Shown here one piece after another: positions 1 through 52,743 of a stretch of 60,000 bases of DNA. The stretch covers positions 1,337,751 through 1,397,750 of the forward strand of contig NW_004754921.1 of NCBI RefSeq assembly GCF_000188695.1. Direction: 5' to 3'. The stretch is from Salpingoeca rosetta. Taxonomy: Eukaryota > Opisthokonta > Choanoflagellata > Craspedida > Salpingoecidae. The notes under the pieces are model-generated. The model searched no databases. It saw only the letters and a program-made list of their open reading frames with translations, and was not told the DNA's origin. The translations under genes and the position numbers were made by a program. Numbering within the stretch: the stretch's first letter is position 1; each line of letters starts with the position of its first letter.

Positions 1-40
1 GTGTTGTTGTTGTGTTGTTGTTGTTGTTGTTGTTGTTGTC

Positions 41-134
<94 letters not shown>
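1..134 (-). repeat. (CAA)n tract encoding polyglutamine at the C-terminal side of gene A
   Basis: The plus strand reads (GTT)n with few interruptions; on the minus strand it continues the gene A frame as polyGln after a helical, basic segment ending near IEQLRIERN. The tract touches the window edge, so its full length is unknown. Confidence 0.85.
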
Positions 135-2856
135 GGTTGCGCTCGATGCGCAGCTGCTCGATAATCTGCCTGCATGCCCACTTCCACCGCTGCACAGCCT
201 CGTGCTGCACGTAGATGTCATCGTAGCAGTACTTGAGCACCCACAGCACAAAGCCCGGGCTTGGCTGGCGACCTTTCATCACATTGCCATACGCTTGCAG
301 CAGCTTCTTCTCTGCCTGGAAGAGCTTCTGCCGTCGCCGCGCTCGCAGCATCACCTGCGATACCTCCTTCAATGGAACGTACACCACAAATGACGAATGA
401 TCATCCGCAATTTGCGCGCTTTCCTGGCTGCTCGTTCTGCTGCTCTCGTTGTTGTCATGTGCACAAATTCCGCTGTCGGCTCTCTGACTAGAGGGCGTAG
501 TTGCCATGCTTCTCTTGTCCGCCGCTTGGTTGGCGTCTCCGCCGTCTTTTTGCTCGCCTCGCGCACGACTGCCGCCTCGAGCACGAAGAAGTGGCGTGCG
601 GGACCCGCCACTTCCTCCGCTGTCGCCACAAACGCCGTGCTGAACACGATCTTCAAGATCATTGTCATCGTCTCGGGGTTGCACGGTGAAGGAAAACGTG
701 GTCACGAGCTTCCGCACTTCGTGCTCCTTCGAGTGCACGCGGTTGATGCGGAGAATGGCGCCGCGCGCCTTTGGCACGGCCTTGGCCAGGTCTTCCAGAC
801 GCAAGAACAGGTATGCGACGCCCAGGAACAGCAGCATAAAGCCGAAGATGGCCAGTTGAAATACGCCCACGGGGATGGTGTCAAAGCCAAAGTCCTCCAG
901 GTAGTAGGCGGGAGACCCAAGCATGCACGCAGCAGTCGGTAAGACGCCCGACTCTTTGTGGCAGTTGGAAGGCACGCCGTCCTGCGACACGCGCGCCAGC
1001 GAAGCAAACGTGTAGAAGAAGGGCGAGATGTAGTAGAACGCCTCCTGTGGCGGTGGCGCGTCCGCTGGGCCAACAAAGTAGCCGCTGAAGACGCCAGCCA
1101 TTCCAACAAATGCCGAGTACATGGTGAGCATGAAGTCGTTGCCCTGGTTGAAGTGGTACGCAACACCGGCCATGCCGCACATCCACGCCGCCGCGATTCC
1201 AAGCGTTTCCATCTGCAGCACCGCAATGGCGGTGAGGCGCGCGGCGCTCACGTGTCCTCCAAAGGCGCAGATGTAGATCACAACGATGGAGATGGTCGTC
1301 AGGGGGATGGCAACTGCGGCCAAGTAGCTGAAGGATGCAACGACCACCTGTGTCAATGTGCGGCAATGTGGTTGGTTGAGAAGTCACATACGCTTGTGTG
1401 CGAATGTGCGCTGGGGATGCATTGCACAAGGAGCACGTGCAAAACGTTTGTCAAGATAACGGCCTCACCATTCATACGAATGCACACTTGCACACCAACT
1501 ACTATTACCAGCAACAAGTACACATGCGCAAGCGCACACATGAACCAACCAACACACATGCAATCGCTTCACACATACACACACACACACACAGTCGCAC
1601 TCACACACGCAACGCAGTCTTTCACGCACACTCCCACAGGCACCCACGCACGCACGCTCATACACACACACGCGCGCGCGCCCTCAAGTGCAAGTACCTG
1701 AAGTGACGAGACAGTCTTGTGCTTCTTTTCCAGGCGGAATGCGTTGAATGTGTTAATGAGGCTGGCAGAGAACGTGAAGTTGACAAGGAGGGGAAACGTG
1801 TACATGATGCTGAAGTGGGTGCTTCCGAGTACAAACGCCGGGTTTGCATCAAAGTACAGCCAAGACATGTAGATCATGCTCAGCAGCAACTGCACCATCA
1901 GGTTTGAACGCAGCTGCCTCGCCATCTCCCGCTGGTATCTGCTGATGAGGGCACGGACACAAAACCACCAGCCCGTGGCGCCGTGCATGTTGTGGGTGAC
2001 AGCGATTGTGCTTCCACCGGTGCCCCCTTCGTGTGTGTTGCCCTGGCGCCAACCTTTGCGCAGCGTGAACTTCTTGCTCAGCCAGTTGTCTCCGCTGTGC
2101 TGTGAATCGGGCACACCCCGACCACCACCACGAGTGGTGCTGATGATGCCGTGGCTGCTGCCGTCGCCACCGCTGTTCGTGTGCTTGTTCTCACGGAACT
2201 GCTTCTTGGTTAGGTCGTTGCTGTTGCCGTAAACATCGCGCACACGCTTGCTGTGAGACTGAGGGGCTGGAACGGACAAGTGCGTGCCGCGTTTGCCTGT
2301 TGGTGATGTCGAAGACACGGGTGTCGAGGCCGACAGTGCGGGCGCGACCGTGTGCTTGCTGCTGATCAGTGCAGAGGAGGATGAGGATGAGGAAGCGGCT
2401 GTGCTTGGTGGCGCACTGTACTGCACCCGTGCCCGCGTCAGCCAAATCTCCCGCACGCGTGCCGCCGCCTTGCGAATGGCGCGCTCAACTCGCTTTCGCA
2501 CCCCCGTTGTTTCGAGGCTGGCCATGACTGCTTCCTCATTCTCCTCCCGCTGCATCTCGTCGAGAATGAGATCCGCCGGGTTCTGGTTCGCGCTCGAGGC
2601 TTCGGTACTGGATTTGCTGGCGTTGCTGGTGTCGCTGCGTGGCTGGACGCAGTCACGCCACTTGCCCGCCAGCTCAACCATCGCACTTGGTTCCCCAGTT
2701 CCAATCAGATGCCCGTTCTTCATGAGGATGACGCGGTGGAACATGTGGAACACCTCCGAGCGCGGCTGGTGAATGGAGATGATGACGGTGTTTCCGCGCT
2801 CAGCAAACGCCCGCAGCCACCGAATTAGGTCCAGTGTACCGGTTGAATCGAGGCCG

Positions 2857-2933
<77 letters not shown>

Positions 2934-4603
2934 TGTGGGTGTGTGGGTGTGTGTGGGTGTGTGTGGGTGTATTGAGAGATGAAAAGGGGAGAGTAGGTTA
3001 CATGCGCACAGCAATGAGTATGTGGCAAACTCAACGACACAAAACACACCCACAAGCCCACGACACATCAATCGCGCAACCACACATGCACAAAACCCGC
3101 CCACACCACCTTGTTGGCTCGTCCATGGCCAGGACAACCGGGTCTAGCAGGAGCTCCATTGCAACCGCCAATTTGCGTTTCTGCCGCGCAAAACGCACCA
3201 ACCATAGCATCGCGTCAATCCGATAACGTACGTCACACGTAGGCCGTGCGGGGCTCAACAAACATGTCCCACATGACATGATCACACACGAACGTGATCG
3301 ACCCAAGCAGCAACACACATCGGAATGCGCGCAAACACACACACACACACACACAAACCGAGCATGTTGTGATCCGATGCTCACACACACTCGCACTCGC
3401 ACACACACTCGCACTCGCACACACACTCGCACTCGCACACACACACACACACACACCTGTCCTCCGCTCAAACCGCCAGATGCTGCGTGCTTGTTGCCAA
3501 CGATCTTCACGCACAACAGGGCATGCGAAGGCACATTGTGCATAATGCAGCCCTTCAGTATACAATCACACTCACAGACCACACAGAGTACACACAGAGT
3601 GCACAAACGCACGCACGCACACACACACACACACGCCTCACCTTCTGCACACAGCACACAGCACACAACACGCACACATTCACGTGCACTCACCACCCTC
3701 ACACTCTCCCCAAAGCACGCACCGTGTCGAGGTGAGCACCGAGGCCGACGGTATGGAGGGTGGAGAGCGCCTTGGCCAGGCGTAACTTCAGTGGCATGGA
3801 GGCTGGCAGGCGCAGCAGGGCAGCGTACATCATGTTCTCCTTCACAGTCAGAGACGGGAAATATGCACCGCCATATTGCGGCACAAACCCCACGCGCACG
3901 CGAAGGCTTTTGTACTCATCGCTCGTCCGCAACAGCCGCCCATTCACGTACACCTTTAACAGCAAGAGGGACATGTACAGTTGGGCGGCGTGGTGGGAGG
4001 TGATGGAAGTGGTGCAAGTGGTGAGAAGTGGCGGTTCGAGTGAACATCATGGCGTGGGAACAACAGAGCAGTCAAGGCAACCGCATAGTTGTGCAGTCCT
4101 CAGTGGTACGTGCATGGTTGGTGCTCAGGTACCATACCATCAACACAGATACGACAAGAAACACACGCAAGAACCACACAAGAAACTCAGGCATGTGTGC
4201 ATATATGCAGACGCTCATATGTGCAGACACTCATGCAAACCAAGCGCTGTCACAAACCTGGCCGTTTCTGTTGTTGGACGGGATCAACCCTGCCATGGAT
4301 TTCAAGAGCGTGGTCTTTCCACAGCCAGATGGACCAAGAATCGCCGTCATTTCCCCTGCACAGATGAAAGCACACGAGCAAGCACGAGGCGACGTGAGTG
4401 CAACAGCAGCGATACAGACGCGTAGCTGTTCTTCGTCTTCAAAGCTACACTGCTGCTGCATGCGCACAATCAACCACAACACCTGATCACGCATGCACAT
4501 AAGCACACTCCAGTACAGCGGACCCACCCAGTGCGTGCATTTAAACACACACACGTACAGAGCCACACACACGCACACACACACACACTCACTCACTCAC
4601 TCC

Positions 4604-4634
<31 letters not shown>

Positions 4635-5637
4635 TCACTCCCCCCCCCCACACACACTCACACTCACACACTCACACACACGCATAGCCCCACTTAGACC
4701 CCCAACACACACGCACACACACACACACACACACAGATGCGCAAAGCGAAACGCACAAGGGTTGACAAAGGCGCTGATGTCATGAAGGAGCTGGCGCTTG
4801 TGCGTGTGCGTCCAGACGTTCAGTCCATACATTGCAATGCTGAGATGCTGTGCCTTCCAGGGATACAGCAGCACATCAGGGTCGGCATCGTACAGCTCAG
4901 CTGCCTCCAACGCTTCTAAATGCGGCGTGTGGATGGTATCCCGTGCCCCGCCTTGCTCGCTCGCGCTCTCGTGCACCAGCTGCTTAAGGAGGGTACGGTG
5001 CTGGCGAAACTTGTACCAAGCACACACGTTGCACATGAACAGCACGACAATGACAAGGATGAAGAAGGCCATGCAAAGGATCGGCAACAGGGAACCATCG
5101 GTCCATAGCCACTCGTCTTCGCTGGTGAGGATGCTGAGCACGGGCGGACACATGGGATCGCAGTCCACCCCTCGACACGCCGGGAAAGATGTGAGGTGCA
5201 AGTGCTGAGTGTCGGTGCTGCTGCTGTTGCTGTTGTTCGTGGTGGCGGGGCTGGTTGCCAGCCACCATCTGTTCACGAACGCGGGCATCGCCACATTGCC
5301 GTTGGCAAAGTATGTGTGCCACATGTCCAAGACGAAGGTGAACTGAAACATGCCATTCCTCACCACCCCGTCGTCTGCCTGCCTATCTCCAACCATGACG
5401 AGAAATCCGTGGTGGAAACAGGGCGACACAAACACGCTCAGAGCCGACACCTGCTGGATAGCCCGCTTGACCTGTGCCAAGGCAACACCGCCATACTCTT
5501 CCGCGAAACTCATCACCTCAGCCAATTCGCTCAGGCTTGGTTTGCTCTGAAGCAGCATTCTCTCGTACCGCTTCACCCCCTCAGCACCAGCATTGAATCC
5601 CTATTGTGTGTGCAAGTGTATGGGGAAAAGGGTAGGT

Positions 5638-5674
<37 letters not shown>

Positions 5675-7047
5675 TGAGTGTGTGTGTGCGAGTGTATGCG
5701 TCAGCAAGAGGGTGTACACGAATTCATGCGAGTGCGTGCATGAGTATGAGTTTGTGTGTTTGCGTGTTCGCATGCGTGTGTGCGCATACGACAACGCAAA
5801 CAGCATGACTGCAGTGCTGACCTGGCAACCACACAAACCACCCAGGGAGGCGCACCAACACCTGCACGCCCTCACCACAAATCCAGACAACCAAGAACGC
5901 GCACTCAAGCATGGCACACACGAACCAGAAACAGCGTGTAAGGGTCGTATTTAGACGTGAGGAGAAGAACCGGAAACGCTGGGTTGTGTGCGTGCAAAGC
6001 TCGCAGGCTGCACTGCACCTCGGCGCAGCAAGGAACAGGGTAGCCTTGGGACGACACTTGACCACACAAGTCGGCGAGCGCCGCAAAGTAGTCTCGCTGC
6101 CATGAGGAAGTGACGGATAAGCCCGTGGCGTTGCCGTTGGCTTGAGTGACGCTGGCAGCAAATGCGTCCAAGCTTGCGTGAACGCGACCGGGCGATGCAT
6201 AGAAGGACAGAAGGTCCTGATTTGTGAGCAGGGCCTCCTCCAAGATGCCATCCTGGTTCACAAACCAAGACGAGTCGACCAGCAGCTGCAGCTGAGCACC
6301 TCGCAGCCACACCATGGTGCTGTTGCTGTGTGAGCTGTTGGTGCCATGGGAGGGCTGCTGCGCCAGCGTGGACAACAGCGCATAAGCATGGGCCACAGCA
6401 GCAGTGCCACCAGCAGAGGTGCCGCTGAGCAGAACGCGCGTGGCTGGCGTGTTGGCGTGCGCGGAGTCGAGCCACTCAAGCGCGGCCATGATGTTAAGAG
6501 CGCCCCGAAACCGCAATGCAGCCAACTTCCTCGAGCTTTGAGTCGCTGTATCGCCATCACCGCCGCTTGATGGTTCAACGGGAATGTCGTCTGCCCGTGC
6601 ACCGAGAAACAGGTCTTGCGAGCAGTAGGGCAGGTACACTTTGTTGGCGTCGTGAAAGGCGGGGTTCAAGGCCGCGTCATGGGAGAAGAGGCCACCAAGA
6701 TCCCAAGCCTCGTACGCGGTCGGGGACTCCTTTGAGGACATGAGACGGGGGCTACTGCTGAAGCGCGTGCGTGCCTCGTCGATCGAGCGGGACAGGGCGC
6801 CTCCCTGCAGGAACAGGATCCAGATGCTTGAGTTGTCGCGTCGCTCCACGAAGAAGGTGTACGGGGTGCCATCCGCACAGCTGCTGGGATATGTCCGGGC
6901 GTCGCTGTCCTTCAGTTGCACCTTCTCCATTTGTACGCCGCCGGCGCACGCATGTTGCTGTTGCGTCAGCGCAAGGACCACGACGAGAGCGACAGCATGT
7001 CTCAGGAGCCCACGAGAAACGGTTCCTCGGCGTACTGTGTACATCAA
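1..7047 (-). CDS. Gene A: PAE/Notum-like hydrolase fused to ABCG-type half transporter, 3' end off the window
   Basis: Eight exons: 7047-5926, 5600-4757, 4355-4258, 3953-3723, 3504-3457, 3180-3110, 2856-1698 and 1347-1, giving 1640 codons in frame to the window edge. The N-terminus has a signal peptide. An ectodomain of the pectin acetylesterase/Notum family follows, with motif YLPYC, nucleophile elbow GTSAGG (Ser211, codon 6415-6417), SKYDPY (Asp368) and CFHHG (His437/438). A juxtamembrane CxGVxCDPxC motif (about 516-525) precedes one helix (about 543-566). The ABC ATPase follows: Walker A GPSGCGKT (about 663), LSGGQ (777-781), Walker B with DE at 801-802, H-loop His834. Then come an ABC2-type membrane domain split by an intron, a long charged tail and polyQ at the edge. 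Domain order NBD-TMD is that of ABCG. The hydrolase should lie outside the cell and the ATPase inside. Substrate unknown; lipid or acylated cargo is a guess. Exon 3 joins as NP-W-EMTAI where the paralogue has Gly. Confidence 0.9.
2857..2990 (-). repeat. (CA)n tract abutting the 3' splice site of gene A intron 6
   Basis: The plus strand shows a (GT)n run of roughly 70 bases followed by GTGTGGGTGT variants. In the sense orientation this is (CA)n leading directly into the acceptor acacacag at 2857, before the exon that starts with the ABC D-loop (SGLDS). The polypyrimidine tract normally expected there is replaced by CA repeat. Confidence 0.85.
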
Positions 7048-7637
<590 letters not shown>

Positions 7638-8268
7638 ATGCACACCAGGGCGAGAGGTCATGCGCAGATGGCTGCTTTCATCTTCACGGTGCTGTTGATC
7701 ATCATCAACAACAACGTGCAGTATGGGGCTCACGCGCAGCACGCGGGCAGCTCAGCATCAGTAACAACAACGGCAACATATCCGCTACCTGGCGCTGGTG
7801 CAAGCACAACAACGAGCATCAACAACACAAACGTCTCCCACACCTCCGGCCACATGCCGGCATCGGCAGAGGCAGGCCCAGTTGTTCCGGTACAAGTCCG
7901 CTCCATCATCAGTAACGCATCGGCCACAAACTGCAGGTGCTTCGACGGCAGTGCCTATCAGTATTGGTACGTGCCCGGTAACGCCAATGCAACGACCACT
8001 GCAAACTTGACGTGGGTACTGTACTTCCAAGGCGGACCCACCTTACAGTCCCTCCGTGATGTTGACCATATTGCGGATGAGTACTTGAGCGTGCCAGACT
8101 TGGAGGACGTGCTGCTTGACGGCGACTTTGGAGACGCATTGTCCAGCAACGAAGACATCAACCCACACCTCGCCAGCGCAACCAAAGCCGTCCTGCCGTA
8201 CTGTCATTTGGATGCATGGACAGGAGCAAGCGACGATGCACACAGCCCCAATGACACTGCCACAAGCA

Positions 8269-8333
<65 letters not shown>

Positions 8334-11300
8334 CCGCCACCTGCGGAACCTGTTTTCCAAGGGTTCACATGCACGCTTCGTGTGATTCAGGACATGCTTG
8401 CCCTCAACGAGCAGCCGCCGGAGCGGGTGGTCGTTGTGGCGCGTGGCTTCAATGGTGCAGGTGCGCTCGCACATGCGACTGCCTTGGCAAGTGCCCTGAA
8501 GCAGCCACCATGGAATGGTGCCACCCAACGGCTCTGGCTGGTGCTGGATGACGTTTGGTACACGGATCACGACAACATTTTGCAGGAGAGCCTGCTGTCT
8601 GTGGAAGACACCATCAGCTTCTACAACCCACCCAATCAAACCACAGCCCCTGTCAACATGCCTGCGTGGGAGGAAACGTACCGAAATGAGTTTGCGCGGC
8701 TGTGCCGCAACAACACGCTTCTCAGTGACAATCACGCCATTCTGCCCTGCTGCCTGGACCCGGCCTGTCTCTTGCAAGAACTTCACGCCGCCACAGACAA
8801 GGCGCGTGTGGCGCTGCTCTCCTCCAAATACAACCCCTACCCCATGTTCCTGGTATGTTCCTGGGCTGATTGCTTTAGTTGTTGCGGTGTGGTTGGGTTC
8901 CTGGTGGTGGGTGGGTGAGTGTGTGGGTGAGTGTGGTTTGTTCAAGTATGATGATGGCTTTCTAATGCCTTGTTTGGGCGCATGTTTGTACACCCGCATT
9001 ATGCGCCATGTGCACGCAATGCAACACACACAAACACAAACATGCACACACACAAATACACACAAACACAAACTGACACAATCATGCATACACGCAAGCA
9101 CACACACGCACACATACATGCCCGGACACAGAAATGCAAGTTCCTTGGGCTCTCCTGTCTGCTCACACCACATCTTTGACACTCCTCGACCCCCTCTCAA
9201 CTTGTGACATGCCGCTGTGTCCTTGCAGGGCTTGTTGAGGGGCGCAAGTGCCACTCAGGCGTTTGACTACCTGACAGAATCGCAGCTGTCCACCGTTCAG
9301 CAGCTGTCGGACCTCAGCAACTTCTTTGAGGAGCACGCCGGTCTTGTAGTGGAACAGCTCACCCAGGCCACAAACAACGCAAACGTGACCCTGCCACCAA
9401 TCATCACGCTTGCGTCCCCGTGCCTGACGTATGGCACCACGGCCCAGACGCAGCTTGATTTTCAGCCCGATGGCGTGCTGGACCCCTCCCTCCTCTCGAG
9501 CAGCGCCGTTGTCAGCTCGTGGAATGTTGTGTTTCCGGGCACGAACACGTCGACACGAGACACTGTCATGGACTGGCTTCTCCGACAGGACGCGCCCTCC
9601 GCCTTCCTCGCCCCTGCTTGCAAGGGTGTTGCGTGTGACCCAAGCTGCCCCAACATCATCGGTAGCGGCTTGACGGCAAGCCCAAGCCAGTGGCTGTCCG
9701 TGATTGACTTTGCCGTCATCGTGTTTGTCGGCACGCTGCTGGCTGCTGGCGTCATCACTGGTCAGATCGCCTGGCTGCGCACGCGCTTCCTCATGCGGAA
9801 GCTGACAAGACTCGAGCTCATGCCTCTGCTCACGGCCACCCACGCCCATAAGCGCAACTCCAAGCCGCATCGCATGTCGTCCCACGTGCGTCGCGTCTTC
9901 CGCAAGCGCCACCTCACCAAGCGATCAGAGGTCCTGCGCAACCAACTCTTTACGCGGCTGGAGCGGTCGCAGCGCATCGGCCTTGCAGCAGACGGCCTCA
10001 GCTACTGGACTCCCGGCGAAAACAGCAAGCAGATTCTTCACAACGTCTCCGTCTTTGCCAATCCCGGTGTGTGTGTGTATGTGTGTGACGGTGCGTGTGT
10101 GTGTGTGTGTGTGTGTGCGTCTTGTGCGTGTGGGTGTACGTGCGTACTTGTGTACTCGAGTGTGGTTGTACTCTTGAGTGCATACACTTTCTGGTGTACG
10201 TGCCTGCAAGAACCACCTTCATGTCTGTCGCTCAACATGTGTCTTTCTTCTTCATCCTCTGTTACCGGCGTGTTATCGCCTCTTGACGTCGGTTGTCTGC
10301 GCAACTGCCACCAGGCCAAATCACCGCCATCATGGGCCCGTCCGGTTGCGGAAAGACGACGCTCATGGACGTCTTAATTGGGCGGCGCAAAGTCGGCAAG
10401 ATACGCGGAAAGGTGGGGACATTTTGTGCGTGTGTGCTCGTGTGTATGTGTGTGTGTTGGTGTGTGTGTTTGTGCGTACATGCATGTGTGTGTGTGTGCA
10501 CCTGCATCGTTAGGAGCTCCCTGTCGTCGTTGCTTGTGTGTGTGCGTGTGTGGTTGTGTGTGCGTGTGTGCGTGTGTTTGCATCGTTGGGTCTGGGTGAA
10601 ACCAGCAAGTCACTTAGCGACGGCTCTCAAGTCACGTGCTTTCCTTGCCTTGCTATTGAACAGTGCATGATCAACGGCTGCGAACTGCACCACAAGTACG
10701 AGGAGCGGACGCTGAAGCATCGCGTGGCGTATGTCGAGCAGTTGTGTGGCGCCTATTTCAACGACATGACTGTCAGGGAAAACGCAATGTTCAACGCCAT
10801 GCTTCGTCTTCCATCGTCCATGCCAACAGAGGAGAAGCTCGTTCGTGCTCTCTCTGCCCTGAAGACAGTCAACCTCCTCCAGTTCGCAGACCAGGTACGC
10901 ACACATGGCCGTGTCGCAGTACCCATGCGTGCGGCGCTCTCTGTGCGTACTACTGTGACGAGTTGTGGGTGCTCGAGTGTGGCGTTGTGTTTGAGAATGT
11001 GTGTGAGGGTGGTGTGTGAGTGTGGCGTGAGTTCCTGCGGGACTGTTGGCGATGTACTACGAGCGCTTGTGCGGCACTGTGTGCACCCGTCACATGTATT
11101 CACAAATGCACTTGTTGTAGATCGTGGACACTGGTTCTGGGGGCCTCAGCGGTGGACAGGTGAGCTGATGGTGAAGTTGTCTGCGTCGACGTTGTTCCTG
11201 ACTGTCGCATATTCCCGTTGCCAACACTGACTATGTCGCTGTCGTGCCTGCGCTCCGCCTTCTTTGATCGCATGCATGCACACACTTGCATGAACACGCA

Positions 11301-14300
11301 TGTATGCGTTTGTCCGTTTGTGCTCCGTACCCGTGCACACGCACCAGCACGTTCGTGACCACACTCGTATGTTCATCACACCCAAATGCATTCTCATGCA
11401 TCCGCCCATACATGCACAGAAACGCCGCTTGGCCGTTGCAATGGAGCTCTTGCTTGACCCGGCTGTCCTGGCCATGGACGAGCCAACAAGGTACAGTGGG
11501 CGGGTCTTGTGCGTGCGTGCGTGTGTGTGTGTGTGGGTGAGTGTGTGTGTGTGTGTTGGTGTGTGTGTGTGTGCTGCTACTGCTGCTGGTTGGTGTGATT
11601 CGTGCCGTGGACTGCGTGGATAGTGTTTCGTTTACACTGTTGAAAACGAGTTGGTACAGATACAGGCGCACTTACATGTGTGGTTTGTACATGTCTACCA
11701 ACCCCCTCACCAAGTGTCAACAAACACACCACAACCACACAACCACATTCGTACATACATACGCGCACACACGCACGCGCACACACATACACGACTTGCA
11801 GCGGTCTTGATTCCAATGGCACGTGGGATTTTATGAACTGGCTGTGGGACTTTGCGCGGACAGGACGGACAATTGTTGTTTCCATCCACCAGCCACGCTC
11901 GGAGGTGTTCCACATGTTCCACCGCGTGATTCTCATGAAGAAAGGCCACGTTGCTGCCTTTGACAAGCCACAAAACCTCGTGAACCTTGCAAACGCGTGG
12001 CGTGCAAAGGCGGAACGCAAGCGCCTGCCCAAGATGGCAAGCTTGGCAGAGGGCCTCAATCCGGCGGACTTTGTGCTGGACCAAGTGAAGCGACCCGACC
12101 TCCACCACATTGTCATCAGCTCGTTCGACCGCACGCGCACACGTGCTCGTGTTGAACGCAGCATCCGGCGTGCCGTGAGCATGCTCAATGCAGCGCGGGA
12201 CACCCTTGCGTACCATCTGGGCGTGTTGCGCCACAGGAAGCACGAACTGAAGCGACTGCTGCACGGCAGCTCTCTGAGCATGAGCAACAGCAACGATCAG
12301 CAACAGCAGCAACACGGTCGGCAACCACATGACCAGCAGCAACATCAGGATTCACTCGATGGCGTCAAAGGGCCAAGGCACTCAGACGATCAGTCTGCAA
12401 GTGCTGCAGTCTGTGGTGATGGCGATGGCGGAAATGGCGATGATACTGAGGGGTTACACCGTTCACACCAGGACGAGGTCGTGGAACGCGTGGTGGACAG
12501 CAGTGATGTTGCAGACATTCTCGATCGAATCCGCGACAACCTGCATCGCTCCGAGAAAGACCTGTATCTGCCAAACGGGGAGGACATACTCACCACGGCG
12601 CATGCACCGCTGCGTGTGCTGTTGCTCACGGGCCGCTTCCTGAAACGCCTGCCGTCGTCTTTCTTCGTGGTGATGGCGCTGAAGGTCCTGGCGAACGCAC
12701 TTGGCTACTCGTGGCTGTACAGCAACGCGCAGGCTGCATACGTGGTGCTGTCATGTAACTTCTCTCTCATGTTTGGATTTCCCTTCCTCCTCGCCAACTC
12801 GTTTGGGTCTCGCATCATGACGTACCTCGAAGCATTTCGCCTCGAGGCCCAGATCGGCGTCGTCAACGCGTTTGAGGTGTGGTTGTTTGTGCGCTTGCGT
12901 GCGTGCGCGCACTTGCGTGTGTGTAAGTGTGCGTGTGTGTAAGCTGTGAGTGTGCGTGTGTGTTGTTTGCTTGTGGGCTGGCATGCGTTTGTACGTGGTG
13001 GTTTGCTTGCTTGCGCGTGAGTGTGTATGTATGCGTGTGAGCACGCGCATTTGCATGCAAGCTTGTTCCTTCGTTTACCTGTCTATACATGCGTTGGCTT
13101 GCTCGCTCTTGTGTGTGTGTGTGCGCAAACACCTTCCATGCTGAGCTTGAACCTTTGTGTTGAAGCTTCACTACTTGTCTTATTTGTCCTGCTCCCATGT
13201 GTGTGTGTACCGATGGATGCTCATCCCCGTTGTACACCGCGCCTGTACAACACCATTCTTGTAGGTGATTCTCGGCATGTTCATTGCAATGAGTGCCAGC
13301 GTGCTGCCCCTCTGTCTTGCGCTGTACACCGTTGTGTACGGCATTGTCTACTGGGACGCCTTTGAGCTTGAGCGTGTGCTGGGGACTTCCCTCATCCAGC
13401 TCCTCAACGTGCAGGTGCTCAACGCACTATTCCTTGCGCTGTGCGGTCTGTGCCACCGCAACAGCCTGAGCGCGCGCCATGCCCTTGCTTACTTCACCTC
13501 CATCGTGGGCGTGTTTGCTGCGCTGAGCGGGTTCCTTGTCTCCCCCGGCGACGCCACAGATCCGCAGCTGGTTCTCTACCACACGTCTCCGCTCTACTTT
13601 GTGTTCAGCGCAGCAGCCAAGATGGGGCTCAACGGCCTGAGCCTGGTGTCGTGCCAGGAAGAGGCTGGGGTGCTGGCCAGCTTCGTGTGCGAGGCGCAGT
13701 CGCCGTCGGGTGTGCTGTCGCTCCGAGGATACGACACGGTCAGTGTTGGCCTGATGCTGCTGGCGCTGCTTGGATGGAACATCTTGCTGCTGATTGTGGC
13801 AGCCATGGCCATCAGTGAATCCCCACTGCCTGCTCTGCGACTGTCACGCGATCACCCGTCTGTGTGGCGGAAAATGAGCAAACAGCGCATCGAGCAGCAC
13901 GGCCAGCGCTACCTCATCAGCTTCATTGCGTCGTCCGGCAATGGCAATGCGAATAACCCACCGGCAACCACATCAACATCGTCGTTATCGTCAACAACAA
14001 CAACAGCGCCATCGCCGCCAAGAGCTACAAGCAGTTTCAAGTCTTCCGCGCCCACGTCTGCAGAGCATCGCCCATCGCTCCCCGTGGTAGACGAGGACGA
14101 TGCAGGCCACGTGTTTGTGCTGCCCGCGGTGAAGCGGCTGACGCGCCCAAGGGGCTTCTTCTCACACTCCACCCAGTCCTCCATTCGCTTCAAGCATCAC
14201 CCGCAGCGTCACCACCATCACCACCATCACCACCACCAGCATGCAAGCCGCCGGTCCACGATGATGAGTGACGACCTGGTGTCCGTGCACCACAGACCCT

Positions 14301-15385
14301 CGATGCTGCTGCCTGTTGCCGAGGTGGCGGAGGAGGGTGAGGAGGAGGCGAAGGAGGAGGAGCAGCCGGGTGCTATGCAGCACGCCAGACAGGGCGAGCG
14401 CGAAGGGCTGATATTGGATGGCGGTGTCATGCCTGATGATACCGCGGCCCGCACATACCCAAAGTGGAGCAGCGTCGGCAGCAACGGCAGCAGCGTTGGC
14501 GGCTTTGACACTGGAGGCACAGCCACGCCCAGCCTGGCGCACGCGGACGGCACAACCCAGCTGGCAGCCACGCAATCCCACCGCAACCCGCGCCCGTCCA
14601 TTGCCGCGCCAGCAGCGGCAGCCGGGATGATGCAGGCGCGTGCAATGGGCAGCCTGTCGTCGATCGGAGCCGAGCTGCGCGGCCTGGCTACTCACGACGC
14701 CGGGTGGGAGGATGTGCGACGGGCAAGTGTGCTGGATCTGATGGACCTGCCAAGCTCGGACGATGAAGACGACGATGACGATGAGCAAGACCTGCAGACG
14801 GCGCAGAACGAGATGCTGATGGCCATCTCGGGCGTGCTCGGGCAGCACTCCACGCGCGCCGTGCACTCGTGGCTCACGCAGCGAGAGAAGAACACGTCGG
14901 CGTTGCTGGAGATGCTGGCAAACCCGCGGAACCGCTGGCAGCGGGCCGTGTACCAGCTGCTCAAGAAGGGCGCGCTGCAAGCGGGCGCACCACAACAACA
15001 AGAAGCAGAAGAAGAGGCGCAGCTACACCAGGCGCACCGTCAACAACAGCAAGAGCAGTGGCAACACGAGACACCAGCAGCGAGTGTGCCTGGTGTGCCG
15101 CCTCAGGACAGCGGCGTCTGCGGTGTGGATGATGTGCCCGCGCACCCCCGTGCATCAAAGAGAGTCGTGGACTTCTCGCTGCCCGCAACACACAGCATTG
15201 GCTCGTATGATGAGAATGATCGTGGAGACGGGCACAAGGCAGCCCACGCTGATAAAAACGACAACAGTGACAACAAGGAAGACGAAGGTGGCAGCGGTGT
15301 TCGACAAACGAGTGTGTCGGCCGTCCGCGGTCCAATGCGGAGGAGGAGGGCGCGGATGTATGGCCGTCGTGCCACGCAAGTGTGA
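7638..15385 (+). CDS. Gene B: paralogue of gene A, with a hydrolase domain lacking the catalytic triad, fused to an ABCG-type half transporter
   Basis: Eight exons: 7638-8852, 9229-10066, 10315-10412, 10664-10894, 11121-11159, 11420-11490, 11802-12876 and 13265-15385, totalling 1895 residues. A hydrophobic N-terminus (ATG 7638, 7668 or the in-frame 7575) precedes the PAE/Notum-like ectodomain (LPYC at about 8193). The nucleophile elbow reads ARGFNGAG with Gly270 where gene A has Ser211; SKYN has Asn399 for Asp; CLTYG has Thr472/Tyr473 for the two His. A CxGVxCDPxC motif and a membrane helix (about 563-585) follow. The ATPase is intact: GPSGCGKT (about 692), LSGGQ (803-807), DE at 827-828, H-loop His860. 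The membrane domain spans the last intron. The roughly 500-residue C-tail is low-complexity, with a His run and acidic patches. A half transporter must pair with a second half; gene A is the obvious candidate. The ectodomain may bind rather than cleave its ligand. Confidence 0.9.
8268..8332 (+). repeat. (TCA)n tract encoding polyserine within the gene B ectodomain
   Basis: A run of TCA codons encodes about 20 serines between the LPYC motif and the degenerate nucleophile elbow. Gene A has only a short Ser/Gly loop at the same place, so this is a loop insertion in the ectodomain. Confidence 0.9.
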
Positions 15386-15418
15386 CGGGCGTGTGTGTGT
15401 GTGTGTGTTTTGCGTGTG

Positions 15419-15515
<97 letters not shown>

Positions 15516-16115
15516 CGCGGGGGGGGGGGGTGCGCGCGTGTGTGGATGTGTTTGCGTGTGATAATGTGTGTGTGTGTGTGTGTGTGATAGTGTGTGTGTG
15601 TGTGAATGTGTTTGCGTGTGATAATGTGTGTGTGTGTGATTGCATGACATGAACTTGGTTTTAGGGTGTTGAATGCACTGCTGGTCAGAGCACGTGGGAT
15701 GTTTCTTTGTGGTTGCTTCGCCTGATTAACTGAACGTATGCATGTTGTTGCTGGATCGCGTGCACATGAGAGTATTTTGATCATATCCTCTGTTGGTTCC
15801 CTCACATACACATTAGCTCTCCCTCGTGCAACTCACACCACCAAATATGTGTGTGTGTGTGTGTGTGGACTCACACAAAAGGACTGTCGTTCTGAGCCAT
15901 GGATGATTGAGGTTTGGAGTGTAGTAATTTGGCGTGGGCACGCCGTCACAACAAGTTGGTGGGAAAGCAGTGGACTGTAAACAGCGCAGTCACAGGAGCA
16001 CACACATCCATGCAGGCAACAGAAGCACGGGCACGGTGCCAGTCAGTGCAGGGAGAGAAAAAACAACATGGAAGGTGGTGGGTGGTGTGTGGAAAGTGGG
16101 TGGCAGGTGACGTGT
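15386..16115. other. Intergenic region between the 3' ends of gene B and the lysozyme gene
   Basis: The two genes converge here. The first part is a long (TG)n tract (about 15390-15514), a G run near 15520-15530, and more TG with TGTGATAATG variants up to about 15640. The remainder to 16115 shows no open frame with recognisable similarity. It should hold both 3' UTRs. I see no gene here. Confidence 0.7.
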
Positions 16116-18084
<1,969 letters not shown>

Positions 18085-39701: not shown

Positions 39702-42273
39702 TCAGTTCTCCGAGGCCTGGCTGTCGTCGTGATCAGTCGTCAGCAGCGACTGCGACGAATCAGCCTGGAGCACACACGCAAACACACACGCACACACACA
39801 CACAGAGGCATATGAATAACAACATCACATTCATCAGCCAATCTAGCAATTACACAAGGGCACATGCACACACACACACACACATACAAACAAACATCCA
39901 AACACACACATGCAACACACATTCATCAACATTCATACATACACAAACATCCAAACACACACACACACACAAAATCAAAAGCCACGCTCACAACACACCT
40001 TCCGACGATGTGCACTGGTGCCTGAGGTGGTGCGGTGCTTGGTCCGATCGTGATGATGTCCACGACGGTGGACGTGACCAGATGATGAGCGAGCATACCC
40101 AGCGTGGTTCATGGCATCACCGTCATCGACGTAATCGTCGTCGTCGTATTCGCCGTCGTCGTCATCGTCATCCTCGACATCATCGTCGTCGTCAGCACGG
40201 CGATGGTAGTCAGCGAGCTCGTACAGCGACGTTGGTGATCCCTGCACACCGCTGCCAGGGCCACCACGCATTTGACCCGTGGCTCCCCGTCGGTCGTCAA
40301 CGTGGTCCGGTGTGCCATGCAACATCGACGATGGCGGTGGCGGCAGCGCAGCAAGGTCGGCTGCAATCTCCAGATCACGATCGTAGGCAAGCGTGGCTTC
40401 AACAGCAGACCCACGCGTGCCCATGCGATTCAGCCCCTGTCGGAGGTACTCCTGCACCTCATCCTGCCCGCCTTCGTGCTGCGTGTGCCGAGCGCGGCTG
40501 CGGTGGCTGCGGTGGCTGCGGTGGGATGAGGCAACACTCTGCGCATCACCACCCCCGCTCCGTTGGCCAGAGGACGCCCCACCACTGCCGCTGCTGGCCT
40601 TCACGCGCCCTTCAAACCGCCGGCGCCGGCTGCTCCGCGCCACATCCGAGTCAGACGAGTTGCCGTCGCTGCCATCGTCATTGCTACTGCTGCTGTTACT
40701 GCTGCTACTGCTTGTGCTGTTGCGACGTGAGCGCACATGCTGGTCCGCGGCGCCATGCCCATCATTGTCGCCGTTGTCGGGGTGGCGGTGGCGACGACGC
40801 TGCGGCACGTTCGCACTTGTCACGGCGTGGGGTGTGCGCATGGGAGTGCGGCCCTTCGGCGTGGCGTAGCTCTGGATGGAATCCCGGTGCACGTGGTGCA
40901 ACCGCTCTCTGTTCAGCTCAAGCAGCCCGCGCGAGCTGCGGTTATCGTCCGTGTCCGTGGCCCGGGTTGGATCGACCGACTGGCGAAGCCGTGGCACTTC
41001 GTCCTGCCACGCAGAGTCTGGGCGGTCAGAGACTCGCGACACGCGGTGAGATGACGGCGGACGCTGGGACGGTGGGGGCGGCAGATGCACGGATGGGTGC
41101 CCGTGGTATGCTGGTGAGCGCGAGCGTGCACGGGACCGCGAGCGCGAACGCTGGCGCATGCGAACATGTTCGTTCTCATCAGCACCGTCGGCGCCATCAA
41201 CATCATCCAGCAAGGTTTGAACGTTCACCGCCGTTTGCGATGTCGGCGTGCGCACGCGCGATGGGGAGCGGCGTACCCCGCTGAACGGCCGTGCAGAGTG
41301 CGCTGGGCTCGGTGGCGGGCGGCTGTGCGGCGTCACGTCCCGTGTGGGCACTGCGCTGGCCACACGCGTGCCCTGGCGCTGCGACGCTCCGCTGCGAACT
41401 GACACGTGGTCATCAGTCTCCCGGCGAATGTTGGAGCTAGAGCGCACGCGGCCAGAGCCGGTGCCCTGGTCGGGAAACGCCTCCACAATCTCCCGGCGGC
41501 GGCGGCGTGGCGTGCGCGTGGGCGTCGTGTTCGCCGTGGCACCATGCGCTGCTGCTTCTGCTGCTGACATTGTCGTCGGCTCGTGGGTGCTGACGGCGCG
41601 GCTTGCTGTCGCTGCTGTTGGTGCCCGGCTTCGGCTTCGGCTTCGGCTTCGACTCCGGCTCGCATGACGGCTGCGGCTGGCTTGGCGGCTCAGCCTGCTT
41701 CGCGGGCGGTGGCCGTGATGGTGGTGGTGGTGGTGGTGGTGATAGTGGTCAGCGGCAGAATCTGGATGCAGGCGGTCCGTCATGTCCACGACCTGGTCGC
41801 CCTCAGGCAGCGGCTGCGCTGCAAACTCCTCGTCCGCACGATGCGCATCGACAATGGTGGGTGGCCCAGCGACCACGGCATACTCGTTCTCCTCCACCTC
41901 AGCACTGCCAGCGACGCTGCCGTGTGTGGACGCCATGTGGCGACTGGCGACGGAGCGTGGTGAAGGCTGGTGCGAGCGCGGTTGCAGCGGGCTGTGCTGT
42001 GGTGCCTGCTGGTCAGCAGGATTGCTGGGCGGATACATTGCCACGGGCTGTTGCGTTGTCACTGGTGGGTGCGCAAGGTGTGATTGTGGCGACGTTAAGT
42101 TTGAGGCGCCATGCCCGTGCTGCGGTGCCGGGGGATACATGCCCGTTGGTGCAAATGCACCGGCATTGTACTGCTGGTGCTGGTGTTGGTGCTGTGGTTG
42201 TGGAGCTGTTTGGTAATATTGCTGCGGCTGCTGTTGCTGTTGCTGATAGTGTTGCTGGTGTTGCTGCGGGTAG

Positions 42274-42317
<44 letters not shown>

Positions 42318-45300
42318 AGGGGCCGCAAATGCATGAGGTGGATGGTATGGCTGAGGTACAGCAATGTGACTGGGAGCATGACTGGGGGCATGGCTAGGGG
42401 CATGGCTAGGGGCATGGCTGTGAGCGTGGCTGGGGGCGTGGCTGTGAGCATGGCTGCGAGTGGACATGGGCGTCGTCGCTCCACCGCCGCGGCCCTGCGA
42501 AGGCATTGGACTCACGCCAGTGTCCCGGACACTTCGGGTGTGAGAGACATTGCCCCGTGCATCTTCACCGAGGGGATCACCCTCAACCGCCCCCGTCTGC
42601 AGGTCTTTGTCGTCAATCAGAAGCATCTGCTTGCTTGGTGTGGCGTGCGATGTGTGCTGATCGTGCTGGTGCGACGCACTTGGTCGGCGAGAGGTGGCAG
42701 CAGCCTCGCTCTCACCATGGCCATCCTTGTCACCGTCGCCATTGTGTGTGCTGGCGTTTGCATCGCTCTTGTTGTTGTCGCCTGCATCAGCAACGCTGCC
42801 ACCTTCGCCGTGCACGTCCACCATCTTGGCGTCCTCAGGATCAAACTTCTCACACGAGAACGAGGCATGCGAGAAGTCAAACCCACACAGACAGCGGTGG
42901 TGGCACTTGCACGTCGGGTGCTCGCACTTGCACTTGTGCCTACATCTGCAGTTGTGGTGCATCTTCCTGTGCATCTTCTTCTTCTTCTTCTTCTTCCTCT
43001 TCTCCTTCGCCTCAGCTTCGGCCTTGGCCTTGGCCTCTGCCTCCTCATCCGTTGTTGGTTCACCATCGTCAGAGGCCGTGCGAAGGCGGAGCGTCACGCC
43101 GTGACCGTTGCTCAAGTACACACGCTGCCGCTTGCGTCGTCGCTTCTCCTCGGCAAGCTTTGCCTCTTCCTCCTCCTTCTGCTTGCGCCTCTGAGCAGCA
43201 AGCCATGCTGCATACTTGAGACGCTTGCAGCGCCAGCAGCGGTTGCGGTCACGCAACGTCTCCGCAAGCAGCATGCGGAAGCCACCATTCAACAGGAACC
43301 CACCCCGCGCACTGCTCTCAGACTCCTCAGAATCATCACTGTCATCACTGTCATCACTGTCGCTGCTGCTGCTCTCACTGCCGCTTGACGAAGAAGACGA
43401 GGAGGAAGACGACTCATCGTCATCGTCCTCCTCATGGCAGTCACACATGCAGCAGTGCTCAGTGTCGCTGCTATCCCCGCTGGAAGTGCTGCCAGAGGAG
43501 CCCGTGGAGCTGCTGTTGGCGCTCTCCGAATCACCATCGTCACCATCCGAGCGAAGTTCAGGAAAGTACAGCTTGAGAATGTCGTACAGCGTGGCGGGGC
43601 GCGCCTTGTCTGCGGCCTTGCGCTTCTGACGACGACGACGACGGCGGCGGCGGCGGCGCTTTTCCTTCGCACGCTCCTCTGCTGCAGCCGCCTCGCGTTC
43701 TTGCTGCTCTTTCTCCAGCGCGCGACGGTACGAGTCAAGCAGGTGGTGGATGCGTGACGCAAGATAGTCCTCAGCCTCGCGGTCTAGCGTGATCTGCGGT
43801 GGAAAGCGCCCGTCAAACTCAACGATGTCGCGCAGAGGAGTTTTTCGCCCAACAAACGGACAGCCGTCACCCGGTTTGCCGTCATCATCCGAGCCATCAC
43901 CGTCGCCCTTGTCGTCTGTGGGCAAGGATTCCAGCACCCACTTCTTGTCGCCAATCTTCACCGTGAACAGCTCGGTGCCCTTCTGCACAGCCCGCGCTTC
44001 TTCCTCGCTGTCCTTCTTCTTGCTCTTCTTGGACTTCTTCTTGCTCTTCTTGGACTTCTTCTTGCCTCTTTTCTTCTTCTTGTCTCCCTCGTCGTTGTCA
44101 TCGTCGTCATTGTTGTTGCTGTTCATGATGAGACGAAAAGCCATCTTGCCTCCACGAGCAGGTCCCAGCTTCACCAGCCGCAGCTTCCCGCGGTCATCAG
44201 CCGTCTGCGAGGGTGTGTACACGTACAGCGCTGGCGTGAGCTTCTCCTCGTCCAGCAGCACAACGGCCTGCTGTTTCTTCACGGGCGACTCAAAGATCTC
44301 CACATCTGCAAGTGGCGGCACGTAGTCGTCCTCGCTCACAAAGATGAGCTCGCGCGCTGATCCTGGTGGCAGCGGCTTGCCGTCTTCACCGGGCATGGGC
44401 ATGGCAAACACCCGCCCCGGCGAGAAGCCAAGAAACCCCGCAGCATCGTCATCCCCATCGCCGCCTTGCTTCTTCTTGTCGCTCTTCTCATCATCCTTGT
44501 CCTTGTGCTTCTTGCTCTTCTTCTTGGGCTTCTTGCCCTTCTTCTTCTTCTTCTTATCATCCTCACCATCCACGACATCACAGATATTGCCGTTCTCGCC
44601 ACAGATCATCTGAAACACCAGCCCATTCCGCAGTCTGCGTCGTTCCTCTTCTTCCTTCTTCTTCTGCTCGGCAGCCACGTGCTTTTTCGCCTTGCGCTCC
44701 TTCTCACGTCGCTTCTTCTCACGCTCCATGTGCAGCTGAAACAGCTCTTCAAACGTGCGGGGCTCCTTCTCCTTTCCCTTCTTCTTCTTCTTCTTCGCCT
44801 TTTCCTTCTCCTCCTTGTCCTTCTTCAGCGGCACAATGCGGATGTGCCCATCAGAGTCAATCTTCACTGTCACTTCATCTCCGCCGTCATCGTCATCGGC
44901 ATCGCTGTCTGAATCGCTACTGCTACTGCTGCTGTCGTCACTGTCATCGCCACCTTGGTGTCCGCACAAGACCATTAGCTGTTCTTCGAGCGTGAGTGGC
45001 TTGTCCTTGTCTCCATGCTTGGATGCGTTCTTGGCCTTCTTGTCCTTCTTCTTCTTCTTCTTTTTCTTTTTCTTCTTCTTGTCCTCCTTGGCATCCGCGC
45101 GTGACTCGTCCACAATCTTGTATTCGTGTCCGTCGATGATGATGGAGGCGTTCCACTTGTCCGCGTCGTCATCCTCCTCCTCATCGTCATCCTTGTGCTT
45201 GTCCTTCTTCTTCTTCTTCTTCTTCTTCTTCGCCTTCTCTTTCTTCTTCTTCTCCCTCTCCGTCTTCTTCTTTTCCTCTTTTGCTGCCTTGAGCAAGTCT

Positions 45301-46836
45301 GCGCGGCTCATGAGCTCCAGCTTGCCGTTTCGCGTCGTAAACACAAACTCATTGGCCAGGCGGTCCTTCACAAACTCCTCCTCGTGCACCTGGTCGTAGC
45401 AGTTGCTGCAGAACAGGTCGCTGCACACAGTCAAGTTGAAGTCGTCGAGCGTGGACGTATCGGCCTGCGACTCCGACGAATCGTCATCAGACTCATCCTT
45501 GTCCTTCTTCAAGTTGTCGAGGTAGAAGGAGACCAGCTTGCACGGGCCAGAGCACGCCGTGGAGGTGGTCGAGTTTGCATCGCCTTCGCTCTCGCTCATG
45601 CAGGACGAGTCAATCGCCGCAAACACGAAGCGGCCCGTGTTGTCGTTGCGGTGGCACTTGGAGCACGATGCCTTCTCCCCGCGCCTCTGCAGTGAGCGGA
45701 ACAGTGCCTGGCGCAGGAGCTGTGGCGACTCGCGCGGAGGGCTGGGCAGTTCTGCAGCCACAAGCCTGGCAAGCTCTTCCTCATGAAGTCGGCACGCCTC
45801 CTTGAACGCTGCCGCTTGCTGCTTCGCCGCTCGCTCGGCGCGCTTCTTGTCCTCCTTGCGCTTCTTCTTGTCCTTCTGCTTGTCCTTCTCATCGTCATCC
45901 TTGGCTTCAATCACCTGCCGCACCAACGTGCCGGAGCGTGTGCGCCGAATCACGAGCTTCGGACGGCACTTTGCATCAGACCCTTCCTGTGCCTCCATCG
46001 ATGCGTTGGACGAGTCTTCAGCATCATCATCGTCAACATCCGTCTCGTGCATGCGTGAGTCCATCAGGCGGTCAAAAACGGCAAACGGATCCTCAAAGTC
46101 GCGCAGCAAATCACCAATGGTGTCCTTTGGCCGAATGCCTGCGGTCAATTGTTTGTGTGAGCGGGGCGTGTGAGTGTGTGATGTGATTGAGTGTGTGAGT
46201 GTGAGTGTGTGAGTGTGAGTGTGCGTTGGGAGTGTGTGAGTGTGAGTGTGTGAGTGTGAGTGTGCGTTGGGAGTGTGTGAGTGTGTGAGTGCGTGTGTGA
46301 GTGTGTAAGTGTGTAAGTGTGTGAGTGTGTGAGTGTGTGAGTGTGTGAGTGTGTGAGTGTGTGAATGCGTGAGTGCGTGAGTGCGTGAGAGAATGTGTGA
46401 GTGTGTGAGTGCGTGAGAGAGAATGTGTGAGTGTGTGAATGAGCCAGTCAGTCATGTGTGTGAGTGTGTGAGTGCGTGAGAGAGCATGTATGTGTGTGCA
46501 AAGTAGAGGCGGTGAAAGACACATGTGCCTGTGACGTACACTCGACTTGTGCACATCATGGTCAGTCGAGCATGCGATGAACACACTCTCCTAGAGATAG
46601 CTCTCCACACGTGAACATGGATATTTCCATAGAACCCTAACCTTGTCGCTTCTTGGTTTCCTTGTCGACCTTTTCTTTGCGTTTCTTGCGCTCTCGACGA
46701 TCGAGTGCATGCAGCGCTTCGAGCTGCTCAGCAGACTGCAAACACGAAACATAATGGCAGCATGCGGAAGTGTTCAGTGTGCATGTGCGTTGTATTTGTC
46801 GCGAGGGTGTTGCATGTTGCGTGTTGCGTGGTGTGC

Positions 46837-51668: not shown

Positions 51669-51932
51669 CTATGATGATGCGGGCTGCATGAGGCCCAACC
51701 ATCCTCGGGTGCGAGACGTCGTGGAGTGCAACACCTGCGATGACAACAACAGCAGCAGCGGAGACGGGTGAGGAGATGAGAAGCAATTGCAACTAGACAC
51801 AGATGCATTCGCGAGGATATGTACAGAAATGTGGGTGTTTCTGTTGGTGACGCGAACCTCTTCGTGCTCTTTTGGGGTGAACTGCAGTATCGTGGAAATG
51901 ACCTTGGCCAACTCCTACATGAGCACAAGTGA

Positions 51933-51973
<41 letters not shown>

Positions 51974-52702
51974 AGTGAGTGAGTGAATGTGCGTATGCGT
52001 GTGTGTGAGTGTGTGAGTGAGTGTGTTTGTGTGCAAGGAGTGGCTGCATCTGCGAGACAAAAAAAGTGTTGGGTGTTGGTTGGCATATGCACACACACGC
52101 GCATACGCATACATAACAAACACATACATAACACCACACACACACACACACCCAGCGCGTACCTCCTGGTGGGAGCCAAGCATGTATTGGTAAACGACGT
52201 TCTTGAGATACAGCAGTTGGTTATCGGTGTCGGACCTGTTGGAAGCAATGGAATCACACAGGAAAACGAAGAATGTGCGTGTGTGCGAGTGTGTGGGTGA
52301 GTGAGTGAGTGAGTGAGGGGTGGAGGTAAAGGGGGAGGTAAAGCCAGCATGCACGCACATAGCGACACACCCACGCACACCCACGCACACCCACGCGCAC
52401 ACACGCACACACTGAATAGTGTCACGAATAGCACGCACTTTTGCTGTTGGAGGACAGCGAGTCGATCCTTGAGGTCTTGGATGTGCTGCTGCTGCTGCTG
52501 CGTGGATAAGTCACTGCCAAGCGCAGTCTCGGGGCTGGCCTGCAGCGCAAGCTGATGCGTCTTCACATCCAGCTCGTGTTGCAGCTGTGTGATGTTGGTG
52601 CGATGGCAGGCATAGAGTACATGAGCAAGCCTCACAAACAGGGACACAACCACATTCTCGCATAACAAGACGCACACACACACGCACACACACACACACA
52701 CA

Positions 52703-52743
<41 letters not shown>

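Follow-up and report, generated by a model that had tools for sequence, protein, structure and literature searches.

Does a single protein of Salpingoeca rosetta, a choanoflagellate and thus one of the close single-celled relatives of animals, join an extracellular hydrolase to a membrane transporter, and, if so, what might such a protein do? The question is raised by a 60,000-nucleotide stretch of contig NW_004754921.1 (positions 1,337,751 to 1,397,750; hereafter the window). The original prediction had placed here one protein made of a signal peptide, a hydrolase of the pectin acetylesterase (PAE)/Notum family, one membrane helix, an ATP-binding cassette (ABC) ATPase and an ABC2 membrane domain. 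We found that the window holds two such fusion genes, arranged head-to-head, with gene A on the minus strand and gene B on the plus strand, and the fusion of signal peptide, hydrolase, helix, ATPase and membrane domain in gene A is confirmed at the level of the gene model.

Both genes were modeled from the DNA as eight exons, with GT-AG joins and open exons throughout their readable parts. Gene A is in frame over at least 1639 residues and does not close in the window, since it reaches position 1 within a poly-Q tract and then enters a run of N (2280 N in the flank). This tract appears as TGT on the plus strand (window 1-135), followed by ~2.3 kb of N. Gene B encodes a complete protein of 1895 residues and ends with the stop codon TGA. 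The start that had been proposed for gene A at 7047 had to be corrected, as the ATG is actually at 7044, whereas the proposed junctions 5926/5600 and 4757/4355 proved to be the exact positions at which GT-AG splicing keeps the frame. The features of the two genes are as follows (window coordinates).

5926..7044, minus strand: gene A exon 1, signal peptide, then the Notum/PAE hydrolase over its N-terminal two thirds, where Ser210 lies in GTSAGG and Asp367 in SKYDPY; GT donor in frame, PF03283 match, Notum match (4uzj, E 5.3e-14)
4757..5600, minus strand: gene A exon 2, C-terminal part of the hydrolase (His437 in SPCFHHG; Cys-rich end, CRGVDCDPMCP), then the membrane helix at residues 544-562, a linker and the first strand of the ATPase; single open frame of 281 codons
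4258..4355, minus strand: gene A exon 3, Walker A (GPSGCGKTT)
3723..3953, minus strand: gene A exon 4, Q-loop region
3457..3504, minus strand: gene A exon 5, ABC signature LSGGQ
3110..3180, minus strand: gene A exon 6, Walker B (AMDEPT)
1698..2856, minus strand: gene A exon 7, D-loop, H-loop, long cytosolic linker and predicted membrane helices 1-2
1..1347, minus strand: gene A exon 8, predicted membrane helices 3-6, long cytosolic tail and poly-Q, then the run of N beyond the window
7045..7637, no strand: intergenic region, 593 bp between the start codons of A and B, with a CA/TG array at 7381-7540
7638..8852, plus strand: gene B exon 1, signal peptide and Notum/PAE-like domain, with Gly270 in place of Ser and Asn399 in place of Asp; PF03283 match, 32.2 bits
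9229..10066, plus strand: gene B exon 2, C-terminal part of the hydrolase with Tyr473 in place of His, Cys-rich end, membrane helix and first ATPase strand; matched by gene A exon 2, E 2e-11
10315..10412, plus strand: gene B exon 3, Walker A
10664..10894, plus strand: gene B exon 4
11121..11159, plus strand: gene B exon 5, LSGGQ
11420..11490, plus strand: gene B exon 6, Walker B
11802..12876, plus strand: gene B exon 7, H-loop, linker and predicted membrane helices 1-2
13265..15385, plus strand: gene B exon 8, predicted membrane helices 3-6, low-complexity tail of ~500 residues and TGA

The evidence for one protein centers on exon 2, which in both genes holds the end of the hydrolase (in A, from its His/Cys region onward), the membrane helix and the first strand of the ATPase. 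Because this exon spans the join of the domains in one open frame (in A, 281 codons, with a probability of ~3.5e-5 by chance given the base composition), the join is independent of any predicted splice. In addition, both Pfam families exceed their cut-offs in the same gene A protein, PF03283 (PAE) with 91.4 bits over residues 52-229 (cut-off 26.6) and PF00005 (ABC_tran) with 91.5 bits (cut-off 25), in a scan that took in residues 1-1600 of the 1639 that can be read. The hydrolase occupies exons 1-2, the ATPase exons 2-7 and the membrane domain exons 7-8, so that all splice junctions fall within domains; therefore, none of them parts a complete hydrolase from a complete transporter. A single protein with hydrolase, helix and ATPase had been proposed, and is borne out by these results. 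As the sign of two distinct genes, the original prediction had named transcripts that each have a start and a stop of their own between exons 2 and 3, and this possibility is weakened, given that exon 2 already carries the join.

Gene B, which has the same architecture and shares the introns, is on this sequence evidence the decisive control for the fusion. All splice junctions (7/7) of the two genes fall in the same alignment column and in the same phase. The proteins share 32% identity over A residues 32-936 (blastp, E 1.4e-129) and 27% over the membrane domain (A residues 1104-1395, E 1.1e-37), with ~30% in the ectodomain and weak conservation in the linker and tails. The PF03283 match of B is lower (32.2 bits, residues 89-200), and its PF00005 match is somewhat higher (100.9 bits).

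The hydrolase ectodomain resembles Notum. When the A ectodomain was compared with the PDB, all eight distinct sequences at E <=0.01 were Notum, the best being 4uzj (5.3e-14, residues 47-221), and the alignments to Notum chains (E 5e-14 to 3e-11) include the PYCS region and the GxSAGG elbow. The B ectodomain gives a weak Notum match (E 0.0018). The original prediction had called for a structure prediction of the ectodomain; the AlphaFold2 model of A exon 1, built from an alignment of two sequences, has a predicted local distance difference test (pLDDT) score of 37.5, and in a Foldseek search of the PDB it places Notum at ranks 1-9 with a TM score of ~0.3, followed by other alpha/beta hydrolases. 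This low-confidence model thus lends mild support to a Notum-like fold. The Cys-rich end is similar to that of Notum (SCPWPHCNPSCP), but the corresponding piece of the alignment, which includes B, scores -5.1 bits and is not significant.

For comparison, the catalytic residues of human Notum are Ser232, Asp340 and His389, and its oxyanion hole includes Trp128, as given in the available excerpt of PMC8172013. In A, the triad appears to be complete, as Ser210, Asp367 and His437, with each residue assigned on a different basis. Ser210, in GTSAGG, aligns directly to Notum. Asp367, in SKYDPY, aligns to LVDAW of a PAE gene elsewhere in the genome, C21 (hhalign probability 32, E 5e-4), and LVDAW in turn aligns to LFDEA of Notum (LFDEAQM). 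His437 stands three residues after Cys434, as does the His of the C21 PAE (SCRTH), which is a C-x-x-H pattern and not a scored alignment.

In B, the aligned positions hold Gly270, Asn399 and Tyr473, so that all three catalytic residues are lost. However, B retains every one of the ten ectodomain cysteines of A (56, 141, 327, 339, 340, 345, 434, 515, 520 and 524; Cys33, which falls in the presumed signal peptide, is excluded from the count), as the alignment of the two proteins shows. Since the triad is lost yet the cysteines are all kept, B looks like a folded pseudo-hydrolase.

Plant pectin acetylesterases (family CE13) belong to the same Pfam family and have no transporter part. Their motifs are GCSxG, NxayDxxQ and HCQ in the excerpt of PMC5465549; these are matched only inexactly by GTSAG, SKYDPYT and SPCFHH of A. 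We set aside a classical plant-type PAE because the PDB matches of A are all Notum, but no plant PAE is among those matches, and they do not gauge how close A is to the plant enzymes.

The second part of both proteins contains one ATPase per chain, in which Walker A, the signature SGGQ, Walker B and the H-loop are intact and in order. Among the best 60 of 362 PDB matches, the nearest relative of the ATPase is ABCG25, followed by CDR1, ABCG16, a yeast-type pleiotropic drug transporter and ABCG5. For the exon-7 pieces, the best NCBIfam match is TIGR00955 (pigment precursor permease), with 62.4 and 50.3 bits, relative to a cut-off of 736 that is set for whole proteins. The codon that spans the splice before Walker A (window 4355/4757) encodes Trp in A (NPWEM) and Gly in B (NPGQI); Trp is an unusual residue at this position of an ABC protein.

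In A and B alike, the ATPase precedes the membrane domain. The hydropathy profile of A has the anchor helix and then, at a loose threshold of 0.9, six peaks after the ATPase. The profile of B has nine peaks above 0.9 in residues 1093-1372; six of these coincide with the peaks of A and were taken as membrane helices. Against Pfam ABC2_membrane, B stays below the threshold (8.6 bits with a cut-off of 26.9; E 1.7). A model of transmembrane helices 3-6 of B (pLDDT 47.1) has ABCG8, ABCG25, ABCG2 and again ABCG2 as its top four PDB fold matches (E 0.15-0.79), and a profile of A and B finds as its best match, in a small set and over 39 positions only, a known ABCG membrane open reading frame (ORF) of the same genome (E 1.3e-4). 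Taken together, the ATPase matches, TIGR00955, the motifs, the hydropathy, the sub-threshold Pfam match and the fold matches make it likely that A and B belong to the ABCG family, with a divergent membrane domain.

The orientation of the protein can be predicted. The signal peptide of A, read by eye, has a hydrophobic core at about residues 17-26 and a likely cleavage site after ACA, and positive residues, also read by eye, directly follow the anchor helix. Because of these residues and because the later helices are even in number, the ectodomain would lie outside the cell and the ATPase and tail inside.

ABCG half-transporters such as ABCG5 and ABCG8 share with A and B the ATPase-first order, the six likely helices, one ATPase per chain and the back-to-back arrangement of paralogous genes. 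A and B differ from them by the hydrolase ectodomain, which turned up on no ABCG protein in our searches of open PMC papers, and by the divergent membrane domain. In addition, the ABCG5/ABCG8 dimer has one degenerate ATP site, whereas the ATP-site motifs of both A and B are intact. ABCG5 and ABCG8 are co-regulated through a bidirectional promoter, according to the excerpt of PMC1796892. A second likeness, in layout and not from a comparison of sequences, is to the Adp1-type ABCG proteins (yeast Adp1 and some plant ABCGs), which also have a signal peptide, a large luminal N-terminal domain and a helix before the ATPase; to our knowledge, the N-terminal domains of these proteins are not hydrolases.

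The one match to microbial rhodopsin in this genome encodes a domain identical over 221 of 221 residues to PDB 7cj3/7d7q, the rhodopsin-phosphodiesterase of S. rosetta, a single-gene match that strongly supports the species assignment. In the 54.4 Mb assembly (49 contigs), where all counts are lower bounds, exon 1 of A finds itself, B (E 5e-19) and the C21 PAE gene (E 0.003), with all three candidates scored. Exon 2 finds itself, B (E 2e-11) and a place on C8 at E 0.2, which we treated as chance (again three of three candidates scored). Exon 7 gives six matches among 15 scored candidates, namely itself, B (in two places) and ABC places on C38, C7 and C2. These exon searches brought up no further fused gene beside A and B, although stretches of N or the search's first look may hide some. 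The assembly thus shows one divergent pair and, within the reach of these searches, no widespread family of such fusions.

Three further PAE loci were located, at C21:1008000-1017900, on C37 and on C1. Their ORF lists (at least 90 or 100 amino acids, inspected by eye) showed no sign of an ABC fusion and none has a match to exon 7 of A, with the C37 locus only partly judged because 5175 of its 9901 bases are N. At C21, the PAE gene keeps GGSAGG, LVDAW and SCRTH, and an actin-related reading frame lies alongside it, as judged by eye. Outside this genome, pattern searches of prokaryote genomes, viral contigs and plasmids found no relatives of A exon 2, and a piece of the C21 PAE found none in prokaryote genomes, in a scan that is insensitive, given that PF03283 matches in 1 of 14 control genomes. 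Finally, our full-text searches of open PMC papers listed no account of a PAE/Notum-ABC fusion; PMC3091767, in its available excerpt, mentions both Pfam domains separately. Altogether, the combination of two known families appears to be new, at least to us, and the pairing of an apparently active with an inactive gene is striking. We do not claim that it is unique to S. rosetta.

What could these proteins do? The reading that we favor, while giving it slightly less than an even chance, is a surface pair of ABCG-type half-transporters with a tethered esterase that cleaves an ester on the cargo or on a nearby acceptor. We infer that A and B would be co-expressed from their common intergenic region and would form a dimer, as ABCG5 and ABCG8 do. 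Driven by ATP, a hydrophobic or acylated cargo would then move through the membrane domain and be delivered to the outer leaflet, or be taken up there. Above the outer mouth, the A ectodomain might cut an ester, either on this cargo or on an acceptor close by on the surface; that of B might bind the cargo or hold the dimer together without catalysis. The original prediction had spoken of a self-contained export-and-deacylate machine. Its fusion and topology are supported by our results, to which the apparent triad of A adds; the term "self-contained" fits them less well, since the inactive partner gene suggests two subunits. Coupled export and deacylation is plausible. A more specific version, in which the A:B heterodimer is an exporter with a built-in processing station, seems to us rather unlikely; here an acylated lipid, a glycolipid or a lipidated peptide would be flipped or exported by the dimer, captured by B and deacylated by A at the exit.

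Several results weigh against the favored reading. On the transporter side, Pfam ABC2_membrane has no match in A, searches of the genome listed 14 places for PF01061 and 4 for PF19055 with neither gene of the window among them, and the model of helices 3-6 of B has no PDB match at E <=0.001. Because the PF01061 and PF19055 searches miss both genes, a standard ABCG membrane domain is disfavored, and the ABC2 membrane domain is the weakest item of the original list of domains, in which the hydrolase and the ATPase are upheld by Pfam. On the hydrolase side, the profile of exon 2 has no match in the PDB, which bears on the assignment of the catalytic His, and the position of Notum Trp128 is Ala in A (QGGALS), which makes both the predicted activity and the lipid preference of A uncertain. 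Both fold models, moreover, are of low confidence. As to pairing, homodimers are equally possible, since both ATP sites look canonical, and the coupling of hydrolysis to transport is purely a matter of conjecture.

Notum is a palmitoleoyl-protein carboxylesterase with an alpha/beta-hydrolase fold that takes palmitoleate off Wnt. It is not part of a transporter, while the A/B domain is fused to one, and Wnt pathway components are absent from S. rosetta according to the excerpt of PMC4054682. Wnt is therefore not the substrate in this organism, and, given also the Ala at the Trp128 position, the substrate of Notum is not to be assumed for A.

The favored pair of half-transporters with an active tethered esterase has to be weighed against other explanations of the same architecture. 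Choanoflagellates eat bacteria, and the hydrolase could act alone, for example as a cell-surface esterase on acylated glycans or glycolipids of bacterial prey or of the extracellular matrix, while the transporter moves an unrelated cargo or a small product and the fusion serves mainly for surface display or co-localization. Enzymes of this family do function without a transporter, Notum on Wnt and plant PAE on pectin (excerpts of PMC8172013 and PMC5465549), and the three further PAE loci of S. rosetta lack a match to the ATPase/linker exon of A. However, an inactive and apparently folded copy has been kept on a second transporter of the same layout, which suggests that the role of the domain is tied to the transporter, and we consider independent action somewhat unlikely. 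The loss of the triad in B, together with the absence from A of the Notum Trp at the oxyanion position, would also fit an ectodomain that is a non-catalytic module for ligand binding or gating in both proteins, with a vestigial triad in A. We judge this improbable because A keeps three triad positions and the GxSAGG elbow at ~30% identity to B, a pattern that would be unlikely to persist without selection for catalysis.

It is also conceivable that there is no fusion at all, and that adjacent genes were read as one or a pseudogene was taken for a gene; the C-terminus of gene A does fall within a run of N, and the gene models come from DNA alone. Yet exon 2 holds the join in both paralogues, seven introns are conserved in place and phase, and the readable exons are all open. 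Given a join that lies within one exon, a paralogue that conserves it and seven introns in common, we rejected the two-gene artefact, and regard an artefact of any kind as very improbable indeed.

The remainder of the window contributed a few observations of its own. Long GT, ACAT and AAC arrays lie downstream of gene B, at 15391-15638, 16331-16521 and 17087-17235. On the minus strand, a 2158-residue open frame at 39978-46451 has no Pfam match at E 1e-4, a reading frame at 51796-53499 has a Bestrophin-like match that stays below the threshold (PF14023, 25.0 bits with a cut-off of 32), and a long frame at 56075-58249 matches intermediate filament, also below the threshold (23.2 bits with a cut-off of 40), perhaps as a generic coiled coil. 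An Rfam scan of the window gave no match.

If the fusion is real at the protein level, it would mean that, in a lineage that lacks Wnt, a Notum-type hydrolase is physically attached to a transporter of the ABCG type. This raises the questions of what role Notum/PAE enzymes had before there was Wnt and whether chemical editing of the cargo at the exit is within the reach of an ABC exporter. S. rosetta is a tractable laboratory organism, and the apparently active and inactive pair of A and B provides a built-in control for such questions. If the hydrolase does act as a processing station, the transporter would edit its departing cargo, and the Notum fold would have had a use before Wnt, beside a lipid transporter.

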